From Gemmatimonadetes bacterium 2013_60CM_65_52 (GTDB lineage Bacteria > Gemmatimonadota > Gemmatimonadetes > Gemmatimonadales > Gemmatimonadaceae): a stretch of DNA of 64,000 bases. Below are positions 19,909-25,245 of the stretch, piece after piece. The stretch is from contig NGFI01000005.1 of the NCBI GenBank assembly GCA_002215645.1, positions 550,678 to 614,677 of the forward strand, written 5' to 3'. The notes beneath the pieces were generated by a model. The model did no database searches. It worked only from the letters and a program-made list of their open reading frames with translations, and had not been told where the DNA came from. Within the stretch, counting starts at the first letter, position 1; every line of letters starts with the position of its first letter. The translations under genes were made by a program, and so were the position numbers.

Positions 19909-22491
19909 ATGTTACAGCCGCTGACGCTTTCGCCAACAGCCTCCGCGGGCCTCGCGGGCCAAGAGACGCGCATCGGCCCGTATCGCATCATCCGCCCGCT
20001 TGGCCAGGGCGGAATGGGCGTCGTATATCTGGCCGAGCAGACCGAGCCGGTGCGCCGCGAGGTGGCTATCAAGCTGCTGACCACCGGTGTCGATTCCGAC
20101 GTCATCGTCGCCCGATTCGAGACCGAACGGCAGGCGCTCGCCGTGATGGAGCACCCGAACATCACCAAGGTATTCGACGCCGGCGTGAGCGAGGCGGGCG
20201 TGCCCTACTTCGTGATGGAGCGCGTGTCGGGCGTGCCGCTCACCGAGTACGCCGATGCGCACCATCTGGGAAACGCGGAGCGTATCCGGTTGTTCACGCA
20301 GATCTGTCGCGCCGTGCAGCACGCGCATCAGAAAGGCATCATCCATCGCGATCTCAAGCCGTCGAACGTCCTGGTGACGGAAGAAGACGGCGCACCCGTG
20401 TGCAAGGTGATCGACTTCGGCATCGCGAAGGCGACGGCTGGAGCGGATACGGCGCGCCTTACGCAGACGGGAATCGCCATCGGTACTCCCGCCTACATGA
20501 GTCCCGAACAGATCACGGGATCCGGCCTCGACATCGACACACGCACCGACATCTACTCGATGGGCGTGATGTTGTACGAGTTGATGGCCGGCGTTCTGCC
20601 GTTCGATCCAGGCACATACCGCGGCCTTGCGCTTCTCGCCCAGCATACGGCGGTCGAGGCGCCGCCGGCGAGTGCGCGTGTCGCGGCGTTGCCCGCCGAG
20701 CAGCGGGCGACGCTGGCAGCCGCGCGCGGCACCGATGCCTCCGGTCTCGCGCGCGCCCTCCAGGGCGATCTCGACTGGATCACCCTGAAGACGCTCGAGA
20801 AGGAACGCGACCGGCGCTACGATAGCGCGATCGCGCTCGCAGAAGATCTCGAGCGCCACCTCGCCAACGAACCGGTGCAGGCGAGCCCGCCCAGCCGGTC
20901 GTACCGCGCGCGCAAATTCGTTCGTCGTCATCGAACGGGCGTCGCCTTCGTCGCGATCGTCGCTGCACTGCTTATCGGCTTCTCGGGCGCCGTGACGGTC
21001 CAGGCCCGACGGCTCGCGCGTGCGCGCACGGTTGCCGAGCAGCGTCAGGGCCAGGCCGAGGACCTGATCGGTTTCATGGTTGGAGACCTCCAATCGCGGC
21101 TCGTCACGCTCGGCCGACTCGATCTGCTCGACGCGGTGGCGGTGAAATCGCAGGCCTACTTCGCCGCAGTGCCGGAGGCCGAGCTCACGAGCGGCGAGCT
21201 GTTCAGGCGCTCGCAGGCGTTGCGGCAGCTCGGCGAAGTGCGCGTCAATCAGGGCAAGCTGGATTCCGCGATGCGTTCGTTTCGGCAGTCACTGGCGCTC
21301 GCCGCCCAGCTTGCTCCGCGCGACACCCTGAACGGCGACTGGCAGCTCGGCCTCGGAGCGAGTCATTTCTGGGTCGGCAGCGTCCACTACCAGCGCAACG
21401 ACCTCGACTCGGCACTGGCGCACTTCGTTCCGTATCTGCGTCTGACCGAGGCGCTCGTGCGCCGCTCGCCCGAGAACCGGACCTATCGCCTCGAGCTCGG
21501 GCTGGCGAACAGCAACATCGGATCGACGCGCGAAGCGAAGGGGGATCTGTCGGGCGCGTTGGAGGCGTTTCGCGCGAAGGTCGCCATCATCGAGGATCTC
21601 GTTCGTCGCGATTCGTCCAATCTCGCGTGGCTGGCCAATCTGGCAAACGGCTACAATACCGTCGCCGTGATACAACGGAAGCTTGGCGATCTACACGGCG
21701 CGGAGGTCAGTCACCGCCACGAGCTCGCCCTCAAGCAAGCGCTCGTTCGCCGCGACACCGCCAACAAACAGTATCCGCAGGCCGTGGCGTTCGCCGACGC
21801 GTTCCTCGGCGAGCTGCTCGTCAATGAAGGCAACGTGATTGGAGCGGACGAGCCATTGCACGCATCGCGTGACATCCTGGCGATGCTGGCCGCTCGCGAC
21901 ACGGCCAATCCCGATCGACGCCGGTTGTTGGCGAACGCCGATCGGCTGCTCGGGTTCTGGGCATTCGAGAGTGCTGACGCGCCACAGGCGAACCGTGCAC
22001 TCGAGTCCGGGCGCGCGCTGATCGCCCCTCTTGCCGCGCGGAAACCGGTCAATCGCGGCTGGCAGTACATGTTGGCTCGCGTGCAAACGTTGCAGGGCTC
22101 GGTACAGCTCGAGATGGGCCGCGCGGCGGATGCCGAAACGTCGGAGCGGTCAGCGCTGGCCGTCGTCGAGGCGGCGCTCAAGGCCAAGCCATCCGACCAG
22201 AACGCCCGCGTGGCCACGACTGAAGCAGCGCTCGTGTTGGGCGAGGTGCTCGCGCGCAGCGGCCGTCTCGTGGAGGCACGAGCGTCGTGGCAGCAAGCGT
22301 TCACCACGATCGACTCCGCTGCGAGCGCGTCGCGGCTCACCGACCATCTTGCGCTGCTCGCCACGGCGCTGATTCGGTTGGATCGCATCGATGACGCGCG
22401 GCCAGTCGCGGCCGAAGTGCTTCGGCGCGGGTACCGCCGGCCGCATTGGCTCGCGCTCGTTCGCCAGCGATTGGCGCTGCCGTCATCGTGA
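19909..22491 (+). CDS. Ser/Thr protein kinase with TPR-type C-terminus
   Basis: An 860-residue protein. The kinase domain (about residues 25-330) carries the glycine loop LGQGGMGVVYLAE, the lysine K55 in VAIKLL, the catalytic loop HRDLKPSNVLV (H146) and DFGIAK (D169), so it looks active. A single transmembrane helix (VAFVAIVAALLIGFSGAVTV, near residue 350) follows. About 480 residues of repeated helices come after it, of the tetratricopeptide kind (RSQALRQLGEVRVNQGKLDSAMRSF, SNIGSTREAKGDLSGALEAF). These should lie outside the cytoplasm and sense a partner. This architecture is common in soil bacteria. The small gene that follows is probably in the same transcript. Confidence 0.9.
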   Translation: MLQPLTLSPTASAGLAGQETRIGPYRIIRPLGQGGMGVVYLAEQTEPVRREVAIKLLTTGVDSDVIVARFETERQALAVMEHPNITKVFDAGVSEAGVPYFVMERVSGVPLTEYADAHHLGNAERIRLFTQICRAVQHAHQKGIIHRDLKPSNVLVTEEDGAPVCKVIDFGIAKATAGADTARLTQTGIAIGTPAYMSPEQITGSGLDIDTRTDIYSMGVMLYELMAGVLPFDPGTYRGLALLAQHTAVEAPPASARVAALPAEQRATLAAARGTDASGLARALQGDLDWITLKTLEKERDRRYDSAIALAEDLERHLANEPVQASPPSRSYRARKFVRRHRTGVAFVAIVAALLIGFSGAVTVQARRLARARTVAEQRQGQAEDLIGFMVGDLQSRLVTLGRLDLLDAVAVKSQAYFAAVPEAELTSGELFRRSQALRQLGEVRVNQGKLDSAMRSFRQSLALAAQLAPRDTLNGDWQLGLGASHFWVGSVHYQRNDLDSALAHFVPYLRLTEALVRRSPENRTYRLELGLANSNIGSTREAKGDLSGALEAFRAKVAIIEDLVRRDSSNLAWLANLANGYNTVAVIQRKLGDLHGAEVSHRHELALKQALVRRDTANKQYPQAVAFADAFLGELLVNEGNVIGADEPLHASRDILAMLAARDTANPDRRRLLANADRLLGFWAFESADAPQANRALESGRALIAPLAARKPVNRGWQYMLARVQTLQGSVQLEMGRAADAETSERSALAVVEAALKAKPSDQNARVATTEAALVLGEVLARSGRLVEARASWQQAFTTIDSAASASRLTDHLALLATALIRLDRIDDARPVAAEVLRRGYRRPHWLALVRQRLALPSS

Positions 22492-22564
22492 AATTGCAGG
22501 CCCGGGCGAGGGACGCCTGCCAGCAGTCACACCTCCGCCACCCTTCACGCTTTCCGGAGATCAC

Positions 22565-22975
22565 ATGCCAAACATCAAGGTAGGGTTCACGCCGACGGCC
22601 ACCCCCCAATTCACGTTCGATCCCGAACACCAGCACATGCAAGGCGTGGGGACGATTGTCTTCACTCAGGACGGGACGAGTCCGCAGTGGGTCTTCAAGT
22701 CGTGCAACATCGACAACAACTCCGGTGGTCAGCTCGTGGTTCAGCCGCTTCCGCCGAACGGCAAGACACTCAACGTGCAGGACAAGTTCTTGAACGTCAC
22801 TGCCAAGCAGACGTTCAAGTACACGATCACGGTCACGCAGGGCGGCACGGATTACACGAGTCCCGATCCGGACATCATCAACGATCCGCCATCTGGCGGC
22901 TCGGGCGGGTCGCATGGAGGATCGGGAAGCGGGTCGCAGGGAGGATCGCCCGCGCCGGCGCCGCAGAAGAACTAG
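22565..22975 (+). CDS. Small unknown protein with Gly/Ser-rich tail, linked to the kinase
   Basis: A 136-residue protein not matched to a family. The first 110 residues look like a beta-sandwich domain (IKVGFTPTATPQFTFDPEH, KQTFKYTITVTQGGTDY) and the end is a disordered Gly/Ser/Pro tail (SGGSHGGSGSGSQGGS). There is no signal peptide, so it should be cytoplasmic. It starts 73 bp after the kinase stop behind CCGGAGATCAC, a plausible ribosome-binding site, and a strong hairpin follows it, so kinase and tail protein probably share a transcript. It could be a kinase substrate or partner; this is inferred from position only. Confidence 0.6.
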   Translation: MPNIKVGFTPTATPQFTFDPEHQHMQGVGTIVFTQDGTSPQWVFKSCNIDNNSGGQLVVQPLPPNGKTLNVQDKFLNVTAKQTFKYTITVTQGGTDYTSPDPDIINDPPSGGSGGSHGGSGSGSQGGSPAPAPQKN

Positions 22976-23012
22976 AGCGCGACCGTTCTTCCAGAGGGTG
23001 CATGCGTGACTC

Positions 23013-23050
23013 GGGAAGCCAATCGAGCGATTATCGCTCGGTTGGCTCCC
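23013..23050. terminator. Bidirectional hairpin terminator
   Basis: GGGAAGCCAATCGAGCGAT (23013-23031) pairs with ATCGCTCGGTTGGCTCCC (23033-23050) with about two mismatches. It sits between the converging ends of the small unknown gene (22975) and the reductase-like gene (23062). No long T-run is present. Confidence 0.75.
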
Positions 23051-23061
23051 TTGGGCGGGCC

Positions 23062-24738
23062 CTACTCCGTAAGCACCTTGTGAATTGACGCGATCGCAAT
23101 CGATCCCTCGCCGACCGCAGAGGCGACGCGTTTCACGTTGCCGGCACGCACGTCGCCGACCGCGAAGATGCCCGGACGACTGGTCTCGAGGAGATAGGGC
23201 GCGCGCGTCAGCGGCCACCGCGCCGCTGCGAGATCCTCGGGAGAGAGGTCGGGACCCGTCTTGATGAAGCCGTGCGCGTCGAGGGCGATGCAGCCGTTCA
23301 GCCACCCGGTACTTGGGACGGCGCCTGTCATCATGAAGACATGCCTGACGTCGTGCAGCCGTGTGGTACCGTCCTCCGTGTTGCGGCATTGCACCCGCTC
23401 GAGATGGCGCTCACCCTCGAGCGACACCACCTCGGTGTGCGTTCGCACCTCGATCGCGGGATGTCCTTCGATGCGGCGGACGAGGTACCGCGACATGCTC
23501 TCCGCGAGCCCGCCGGAACGCACGAGCATGTGAACGCGCGCTGCCGACTGCGCAAGGAACACCGCCGCCTGGCCGGCGGCGTTCCCGCCGCCAACGACGA
23601 TGATGTCCTCGCCACGACAGAGCTGTGCCTCCATGAACGTGGCGCCGTAATAGATGCCGGCGCCCTCGAACGTCGAGAGATTGGGCAGCGGCAGCCGGCG
23701 ATATGACGCGCCGGTGGCTACGACGATCGCGCGCGCCGTCGTGCGTTGTCGCCCATCGATCTCCACGGTGCTGCGCATCGGGCCGCAACTGAGGCCGGAC
23801 GCCGCCTTTCCAATCATGATCTCCGCGCCGAACTTCTCTGCCTGGCCAAACGCGCGCGCCGCGAGATCCTGCCCGGAGATGCCGGTCGGGAAGCCCATGT
23901 AGTTCTCGATGCGCGAGCTCGCACCAGCTTGACCGCCGGGCGCCTCGCCCTCGATCACGAGCACGTCGAGTCCCTCCGACGCGGCGTAGACCGCGGCGGA
24001 GAGTCCCGATGGCCCGGCGCCGATGACGATGACGTCGCGCGCTTTCGTCTGGTCGATGGACTCGTTGAAGCCGAGGCAATCGGCGATCTGACTGTTCGTC
24101 GGGTTGCGGAGCACGACCGTTCCGCGGCAGATGAGCACCGGGACGTCGTCCGTCGAGACGTGGAACCGGTCCAGCAGCGCCTGTACGTCGGCGTCGGTCT
24201 CGAGATCGATGTTCGCGTACGGATGTCCATTGCGCGTCAGGAACTCCTTGATGCGCAGTGTGCCCGCACAGTGAACCGAGCCGATGAGCACGACGTCGCC
24301 ATAGCCTCGGGCGATCAGCTCGAGACGGCGCAGCAGGAAGGCGCGCATCAGAATCTCGCTGAGCTCGCTGTCCGTCTGAATGAGCGACAACAACGTCGCC
24401 CGATCGAGCTCGATGACCTCGCCAGGCTCGGCGGCGCGGATCTGCACCACGACGGGACGCCCTGTGAGCATCGCTCCCTCACCGGAGAACATGCCTGGAC
24501 CGAAGGTCACGACGAGCTGTTCCATGCCGTCCAGCATCCGCAGAATCTCGATGGATCCCGTGATGACGACGAACATGCGCACCGACGGCTGGCCGGGCTC
24601 GATGAGTATCTCGCCGCGGACGATGGGACGCACTCGTCCCCGCGCAGCAATCCGCGCCATTTGCGCCGCGGTCAGCGTCGGATACACGTGCTCGACGCGG
24701 GACGAGACCAATGGGGTGGGAGGAGCTTGAGTCGTCAC
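23062..24738 (-). CDS. Cyclic-nucleotide-binding/thioredoxin-reductase-like fusion
   Basis: A 558-residue three-part protein. Residues about 20-140 form a cyclic-nucleotide-binding domain (RGEILIEPGQPSVRMFVVITG, GEGAMLTGRPVVVQIRA). Residues about 148-225 look like a glutaredoxin/thioredoxin-fold module with one cysteine (SVHCAGTLRIKEFLTRNGHPY). Residues 235-558 form the FAD/NAD(P)H reductase (VIVIGAGPSGLSAAVYAASE, DIIVVGGGNAAGQAAVFL, PGIFAVGDVRAGNVKRVASAVGEG). The reductase lacks the CATC dithiol of TrxB: the equivalent place reads YYGATFMEAQLC. It therefore cannot reduce thioredoxin in the usual way. Fusions of this kind occur elsewhere, but their substrate is not known to me. The gene stands alone and converges on the kinase pair. 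Confidence 0.88.
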   Translation of the reverse strand: MTTQAPPTPLVSSRVEHVYPTLTAAQMARIAARGRVRPIVRGEILIEPGQPSVRMFVVITGSIEILRMLDGMEQLVVTFGPGMFSGEGAMLTGRPVVVQIRAAEPGEVIELDRATLLSLIQTDSELSEILMRAFLLRRLELIARGYGDVVLIGSVHCAGTLRIKEFLTRNGHPYANIDLETDADVQALLDRFHVSTDDVPVLICRGTVVLRNPTNSQIADCLGFNESIDQTKARDVIVIGAGPSGLSAAVYAASEGLDVLVIEGEAPGGQAGASSRIENYMGFPTGISGQDLAARAFGQAEKFGAEIMIGKAASGLSCGPMRSTVEIDGRQRTTARAIVVATGASYRRLPLPNLSTFEGAGIYYGATFMEAQLCRGEDIIVVGGGNAAGQAAVFLAQSAARVHMLVRSGGLAESMSRYLVRRIEGHPAIEVRTHTEVVSLEGERHLERVQCRNTEDGTTRLHDVRHVFMMTGAVPSTGWLNGCIALDAHGFIKTGPDLSPEDLAAARWPLTRAPYLLETSRPGIFAVGDVRAGNVKRVASAVGEGSIAIASIHKVLTE

Positions 24739-24915
24739 GCGGGCCTCCAGCGATTCTATAGTAGGCTTGAAGAGGAACGTTACGTCGGGCGCGCCCTATC
24801 ACATAGTACCCGCCCGAATGCAGGGACGCACTCTAGCTTTTGTGGTACCTTCGGCTTCAATACAGGGACCCCGTCGCGTGCAGCAGCGAACGACGACATC
24901 CACAAGGAGCGGAAC

Positions 24916-25245
24916 ATGACGACCGGCCCGCTGGACCCCGCAACGCGTCGCGTGACTGACGAGATCATCGGCCGCCTGCACGCACTCGGCGTGGAGGCAT
25001 CGCAGCGCGATACGCCGGAACAATTGGCGCGGCTGCTCGATGCCGTCGAGCAGTTCGAGCGCACGGTGGAGAGGAGAGGGGGCGACCTCATGGTTGACGA
25101 GCCAATCGGTACGAAGCGGCCGACGAGTCCGGACGATCAGCACTTTGTGCTTCCCGCTCGTGCGGACGGCGAAGCGGCCGACGCATACATCCTGCGCGTC
25201 ACCGAGGCGAGGGACAGGGTGGCGCGTCACCGGAGAATCAAGTAG
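24916..25245 (+). CDS. Small hypothetical protein
   Basis: A 109-residue, highly charged and mostly helical protein without motifs I recognise. A strong AAGGAG (24904-24909) eight bases before the ATG at 24916 sets the start. The N-terminal part (LDPATRRVTDEIIGRLHALGVE) and middle (ARLLDAVEQFERTVERRGGD) look like amphipathic helices. It lies divergent from the reductase fusion across a 177-bp gap and 79 bp upstream of a cupin gene. No function is proposed. Confidence 0.65.
   Translation: MTTGPLDPATRRVTDEIIGRLHALGVEASQRDTPEQLARLLDAVEQFERTVERRGGDLMVDEPIGTKRPTSPDDQHFVLPARADGEAADAYILRVTEARDRVARHRRIK

Follow-up and report, generated by a model that had tools for sequence, protein, structure and literature searches.

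A TrxR-like flavoenzyme family without the CxxC dithiol: exchangeable N-terminal modules and association with zf-UBP genes

Described flavoenzymes and the window enzyme

The low-molecular-weight thioredoxin reductases (TrxR; TrxB, TIGR01292) combine FAD and NAD(P)H domains in a two-domain fold. The TrxR-fold enzymes grouped here with YpdA (the bacillithiol disulfide reductase, Bdr) are not known to have the CxxC dithiol. In AhpF, a thioredoxin-fold piece stands before the TrxR-like piece, and cysteine pairs are kept in both parts (PMC8945050). Among the open-licence PMC papers searched, the only one recognised as dealing with the architecture studied here was the report on ATII-TrxR (PMC6544261). 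That report describes a dimeric, FAD-binding protein of 552 aa with Crp-like and TrxR-like domains, which shares 87% identity with a protein of C. metallidurans. Its own thioredoxin was reduced with a Km of 1.03 μM and a kcat of 28.4 per s, DTNB was also reduced, and NADPH was better than NADH by kcat (PMC6544261). Two redox centres, Cys206-Cys223 and Cys376-Cys467, were named by its authors on a predicted model.

The window (the whole stretch of 64,000 nucleotides that was analysed, from Gemmatimonadetes bacterium 2013_60CM_65_52) carries the gene for a flavoenzyme of 558 aa, with cyclic nucleotide-binding (CNB), glutaredoxin-like (Grx-like) and TrxR-like parts, at 23062-24738 on the minus strand. 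The gene is a single open frame with a GTG start, and stops are present on the plus strand of the same interval. The architecture and conserved columns (C374 among them) of an NCBI-named CNB TrxR-like family were found in the window enzyme, which its sequence thus assigns to a widespread family that already has a name. Because that family is named and common, neither the fusion nor the lack of CxxC is new in itself; the oddity belongs to the whole family, and the new leads are a probable zf-UBP partner and a swap of the putative input modules.

Like the low-molecular-weight TrxRs, the window enzyme has FAD and NAD(P)H domains in a two-domain fold (Z 33). It differs from them in the missing CxxC, in two additional N-terminal domains, in an insert around residues 495-517 and in a TIGR01292 score of 209.4 bits against a cut-off of 343.45 bits. 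With AhpF it shares the thioredoxin-fold piece before the TrxR-like piece, but this is one Grx-like domain and not a tandem pair, and its TIGR03140 score was 132.7 bits (cut-off 502.9 bits). It is likewise distinct from YpdA/Bdr (TIGR04018 score of 59.7 bits, cut-off 339.9 bits), and the structures 8c16 (Z 27.9) and 6gar (Z 25.5), with the TrxR fold in common, were weaker structural matches than the TrxRs. ATII-TrxR and the NCBI-named family resemble it in length (about 550 aa), in the joining of a Crp-like or CNB domain to a TrxR-like part and in equivalents of C204, C221 and C374, whereas their sequence is less than half identical; ATII-TrxR was placed here, unaligned, from its published description and by spacing, its Cys206, Cys223 and Cys376 matching C204, C221 and C374.

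The three modules in one chain proposed by the first-pass annotation are real: Pfam recognised the CNB and reductase parts, and an AF2 fold match the middle Grx module. The CNB-like domain (residues 15-123; 24370-24696, minus strand) was delimited with Pfam PF00027 and an alignment to MloK1; the cNMP_binding (PF00027) match covered residues 39-123 (E 4.1e-16; 59.2 bits, cut-off 27.5). The glutaredoxin-fold domain without conserved CxxC (residues 147-224; 24067-24300, minus strand) matched Pfam Glutaredoxin weakly at residues 150-209 (E 0.054), and a separate AF2 model of residues 124-232 (pLDDT 78.7) matched Grx/NrdH structures with a best Z of 12.6 (1.3 Å over 73 residues). It has the Grx fold, but the cysteine where Grx has its catalytic one is not conserved across the family. 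The TrxR-like FAD/NAD(P)H domains (residues 233-558; 23065-24042, minus strand) were identified by fold match and by Pfam Pyr_redox_2 (PF07992) at residues 235-545 (E 2.6e-35).

The full-chain AF2 model was a single prediction built from 33 sequences, with a mean pLDDT of 82.8 and values below 50 in loop 266-287 of the FAD domain. Its top Foldseek match was AhpF. The fold list contained no CNB structure because the reductase part fills the list, which is not evidence on the CNB fold. When compared with L. lactis TrxR (5mh4 and 5mjk), the reductase part matched the FR state with Z 33.4 (2.1 Å over 299 residues) and the FO state with 6.7 Å over 295 residues. The predicted FR-like pose suits an NAD(P)H at the flavin with no dithiol swinging in.

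A search for related loci gave 40 loci, 33 of them with relatives scoring above 600 bits. Relatives of 53-66% identity, full length and in many genomes, place the protein far beyond chance; a chance or frameshift origin was excluded, as the 33 relatives align along the chain (one of them, L044, with an internal gap). The source records of the relatives included Nitrososphaeria and related archaea, Acidobacteria, Gemmatimonadetes, Eremiobacterota, Proteobacteria and others. In the phylum of the window, the spread was patchy: 63 of 298 genomes had a match at E 1e-60 or better. At E 1e-50, 129 plasmid records had a match, and plasmid NZ_CP007129.1 of Gemmatirosa kalamazoonensis carries one; most of the annotated plasmid matches bear the name 'FAD-dependent oxidoreductase' or the name 'cyclic nucleotide-binding domain-containing thioredoxin-disulfide reductase'. 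The relative in Cupriavidus metallidurans (L071) is 46.7% identical to the window enzyme over 99% and is without CxxC. Only 3 of 50,697 phage records matched at E 1e-30, no match spanning over 60% of the query, and a distant blastn search of E. coli genomes gave no match. A promoter scan of 22950-25000 found none.

The redox site and its cysteines

The family alignment (n=109, including the window protein) comprised 84 members of the CNB type and 25 with another or no N-terminal domain. The window locus itself (L001), own-genome matches to parts of the query (L003-L008), fragments (L040, L042, L043 and L048), the zf-UBP locus L084 and canonical TrxRs (L002 and L045-L047) were left out. At the position where TrxR has CATC, alignment with the relatives placed G365-A-T-F368 (23635-23646, minus strand) of the window enzyme. 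The loss of the CATC dithiol described in the first-pass annotation was therefore borne out; homologues retaining CxxC at this site were looked for as evidence against it and the claim stands, with 0/109. As a positive control, CATC or CAIC appeared in the corresponding region of the four TrxRs (L002, L045-L047). Of the residues in the NAD(P)H half, R407 and S416 were present in 109/109 members. A CATC enzyme that decayed only recently in this genome was ruled out as the origin, because CxxC is missing family-wide. The same genome has a separate TrxR-like gene with CAIC (L002), so that the window enzyme need not serve thioredoxin.

The window enzyme has seven cysteines: C157, C204 and C221 in the middle module, and C318, C374, C451 and C483 in the reductase. 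The statement that the reductase keeps one cysteine was thus wrong, and the middle module has three and not one, although C157 (24268-24270, minus strand) does lie at the Grx motif position. Of the two cysteines singled out by that annotation, C374 (23617-23619, minus strand) proved near-invariant in the CNB type (79/84) and C157 poorly kept. The latter is the least conserved of the three middle-module cysteines (7/34 in the close set; 25/84 in the CNB type, with Ser in 43/84). C374 was ruled out as the surviving cysteine of CATC, since its place is six residues beyond F368, in a family-wide column within the motif EAQLC. In members of the other type it was present in 8/25, the rest having V, Y or M, and three relatives (L066, L069 and L070) have none of C157, C204, C221, C318, C374 and C483; to judge by these sequences, even C374 is dispensable in the wider family.

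C204 (24127-24129, minus strand) and C221 (24076-24078, minus strand; matching Cys223 of ATII-TrxR by spacing) were found in 56/84 and 55/84 CNB-type members, and tend to be present or absent together: both in 50, neither in 23, one only in 11. C318 and C483 were found in 58/84 and 67/84. By simple count in 60 sequences, co-presence gave a Fisher p of 4e-9 for C204-C221 and the same for C318-C483. On the tree, these reduced to 6 and 4 independent pairs, respectively, with sign tests that were not significant; for the co-loss of C204 and C221, the 6 independent pairs gave a mean of 2.2 changes in the same direction and 0.2 in the opposite one. These patterns suggest C204-C221 and C318-C483 as candidate disulfides.

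As the dithiol is absent across the family, the textbook TrxR route for electrons out of FAD is unavailable, and an exit other than the dithiol may fairly be inferred from the alignment. The proposal of a different electron acceptor stands to that extent; against it, ATII-TrxR, of the same architecture, is reported to reduce thioredoxin (PMC6544261).

A true thioredoxin reductase of unusual chemistry, passing electrons from FAD to C374 and C204/C221 and on to thioredoxin by an AhpF-like routing, would account for the ATII-TrxR kinetics and for the paired presence and absence of C204 and C221. The first three of the redox cysteines named for ATII-TrxR correspond by spacing to C204, C221 and C374, a trxA gene lies near the enzyme gene in three actinobacterial loci, and the leading place of AhpF in the Foldseek list points the same way. 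Yet C204 and C221 are both absent from 23/84 CNB-type members, their co-loss is not significant on the tree, and the trxA-adjacent actinobacterial enzymes have W and I or L at these two positions. ATII-TrxR was produced in E. coli BL21(DE3) and purified by affinity chromatography, and neither a cysteine mutant nor a trxB-null control was found in the accessible text (PMC6544261), so that co-purified host TrxR could explain its activity. On balance we consider a thioredoxin reductase unlikely.

Proposed input modules and gene neighbourhood

Relatives that match the window enzyme only from about residue 145-162 include forms with a receiver domain (3/3 scanned: L069, L078 and L082). These sister enzymes share the Grx-like and reductase modules (Pfam Glutaredoxin matched 2/3 of them, with E 1.6e-5 and 1.2e-7) and are also without CxxC, but a receiver replaces the CNB domain, which is found instead on a neighbouring kinase. 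In the same three loci, the neighbour of the enzyme is a histidine kinase that itself carries a CNB domain, and phmmer found this kinase in 7/7 such loci with enough flank (L066-L070, L078 and L082). Enzyme and CNB domain thus remain together, in cis or, via a presumed phosphorelay, in trans; the phosphorelay would run from the CNB kinase to the receiver-type enzyme. Enzyme and kinase appear to form a two-component system with a flavoenzyme output, and the swap of CNB domain and receiver is the best evidence for the N-terminal part as a signal input.

The commonest neighbour of the enzyme gene was a small gene for a zf-UBP zinc finger (PF02148), found in 22/72 enzyme loci, many of which have short flanks. 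Its position is downstream of the enzyme gene in Gemmatimonadota and some other groups, and upstream of it in groups such as Rhizobium and Actinobacteria. In the distance check, which used 65 enzyme places (second copies in some genomes were left out) and 34 zf-UBP places, 15 zf-UBP genes were 300 bp or less from the enzyme gene and 4 more were on the same contig, 1.5-3.3 kb away. On plasmids, a zf-UBP gene was within 1 kb in at least 22 of the 64 enzyme records used (out of 129), with 34 of the 60 zf-UBP matches listed (87 records in all) used for the distances.

Co-occurrence was also counted by genome, regardless of kinship. In the phylum of the window, zf-UBP was present in 40/43 genomes with the CNB type, in 4/20 with only other types and in 20/235 with neither (Fisher p 3e-29 for the CNB type against the rest, a count that ignores kinship); one genome (G261) was taken as CNB type by hand, from a match 68% identical that begins at residue 137. 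In the phylum of Acidobacterium sp. S8 (L035), the counts, again ignoring kinship, were 12/13, 8/15 and 8/121; here G464 was assigned manually to the CNB type, on a match starting at residue 237 and an adjacent zf-UBP gene, and one zf-UBP match under the cut-off (G399) was left out. The link is weaker for the receiver-type sisters than for the CNB type, falling within the groups at 4/20 and 8/15, which also hold standalone forms. Of the genomes behind the related-locus matches, 18/19 had zf-UBP, the exception being a 0.8-Mb assembly, and six plasmid records that were searched without their chromosomes had none. Two phyla and the further genomes agree on the association, in counts that ignore kinship, and the enzyme most likely has the zf-UBP protein as its partner in function. 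We found nothing on this link in the open-licence PMC papers searched.

Within the window, phmmer with four zf-UBP queries (E 1e-4) found no zf-UBP gene. The sole zf-UBP gene of this genome is on another contig, beside a DUF5996 gene (L084, G000:C2 near 94700); an ORF resembling that DUF5996 gene (a Pfam match in L084) was also seen near zf-UBP in L024. A 109-aa protein without Pfam or NCBIfam match is encoded divergently from the enzyme gene (24916-25245, plus strand). Its relatives are near the same enzyme in five other loci (L049, L051, L056, L057 and L062; phmmer E 8.5e-18 to 2.7e-21), which makes the window locus look like a rearrangement of the common layout. On the other side of the enzyme gene, the window encodes a serine/threonine protein kinase (PF00069) with TPR-like repeats (19909-22491, plus strand), beside a DP-EP-like protein (22391-22975).

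In three plasmids of Rhodococcus, Streptomyces and Nocardia (L075, L076 and L081), the gene order is J-domain protein-CbpM-clpB-trxA-zf-UBP-enzyme, with trxA two genes upstream of the enzyme; the encoded TrxA proteins have N-terminal CxxC pairs and WCxPC. This run looks like a portable heat/redox stress island. In the Deinococcus plasmids NZ_CP092191.1 and NZ_CP021083.1, a zf-UBP-like sequence lies inside genes annotated as cation:proton antiporter, where the finger seems to be fused to a transporter. To our knowledge, no ligand has been described for the zf-UBP finger in bacteria and soil archaea.

These arrangements bear on the possibility that the protein works as an NAD(P)H oxidase, or reduces quinones or metals, and that its N-terminal modules are structural only. 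Reaction with oxygen or quinones would be expected of a flavin that has no disulfide partner, and Cupriavidus metallidurans has a relative; however, the exchange of CNB domain for receiver plus kinase points to regulation and the zf-UBP link is left unexplained, which makes such an enzyme quite improbable in our view.

For the CNB domain, the closest solved relatives were the CNB domains of MloK1 (E 2.1e-9 and weaker). The alignment to MloK1 (1vp6) was ungapped around the phosphate-binding cassette, and the arginine of GEPRSAT, which we take to be the phosphate-binding residue, falls on V96; in the same alignment output, two deposited MloK1 variants differ at this position. None of the 83 CNB-type members with a residue there has Arg: the column (n=84) contained A 25, S 22, G 12, T 11, F 7, V 2, C 2, P 1, W 1 and one gap. 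Nearby, G86 was present in 82/84, an acidic residue at 87 in 83/84 and Arg at 94 in 61/84. By the PF00027 cut-off, the domain is a CNB domain, without the cassette arginine. As this arginine is never present, the domain is unlikely, by sequence, to bind cAMP or cGMP in the canonical manner, although G86 and the acidic residue at 87 are kept; it probably senses something else or makes a protein contact. Gating of the enzyme through cAMP or cGMP binding at its N-terminal domain, the proposal of the first-pass annotation, was not borne out and is very improbable: the PF00027 score is far above its cut-off and true cAMP binders are among the sequence relatives of the domain, but the cassette position lacks Arg in 83/83 and the conserved Arg 94 nearby might bind something other than a cyclic nucleotide.

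A proposed regulated flavoenzyme and its significance

By sequence, the family combines a TrxR fold that carries FAD and NAD(P)H motifs, a redox site lacking CxxC in all members examined, a Grx-fold domain whose CxxC is not conserved, and exchangeable N-terminal modules that can be read as inputs. We consider that there is about an even chance that the window enzyme is a regulated NAD(P)H flavoenzyme, derived from TrxR, with a non-dithiol electron exit and a zf-UBP partner. NAD(P)H would reduce FAD in a geometry like the FR state of TrxR, and the reduced FAD would pass electrons to a partner protein or a small acceptor, in the CNB type perhaps via C374 or C204/C221, with the Grx-like domain as a docking or relay piece. 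The CNB-like domain, or the phosphorylated receiver in the sister enzymes, would set the activity, probably under stress.

The regulated, non-dithiol flavoenzyme is favoured because CxxC is found in 0/109 members while R407 and S416 are found in 109/109, and by the TIGR01292 score under the cut-off, the fit of the model to the FR state, the exchange of the CNB domain for a receiver and CNB kinase, and the zf-UBP co-occurrence. Against it stand the reported reduction of thioredoxin by ATII-TrxR and the position of trxA two genes upstream in the three actinobacterial plasmids. The zf-UBP gene of this genome is not adjacent to the enzyme gene, and the FR-like pose comes from one AF2 prediction with a weak 266-287 segment; both also count against it.

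More broadly, and tentatively, the dithiol-less flavoenzyme derived from TrxR could be the output of a signal pathway, with a CNB-like sensor that would have given up cAMP binding in cis or a CNB kinase and receiver in trans, the CNB form acting together with zf-UBP in bacteria and soil archaea. Such a redox-signalling system was not described in the open-licence PMC papers searched.

Many CxxC-less proteins are labelled 'thioredoxin-disulfide reductase' in databases, apparently by overall similarity, and the correction matters, as the only biochemical report found, that on ATII-TrxR (PMC6544261), does not discuss the missing motif, and its text never uses the term CxxC. The tie to zf-UBP and the split layout of receiver and CNB kinase offer testable handles on the role of the family, and the same handles bear on the role of the ubiquitin-type zinc finger in prokaryotes.
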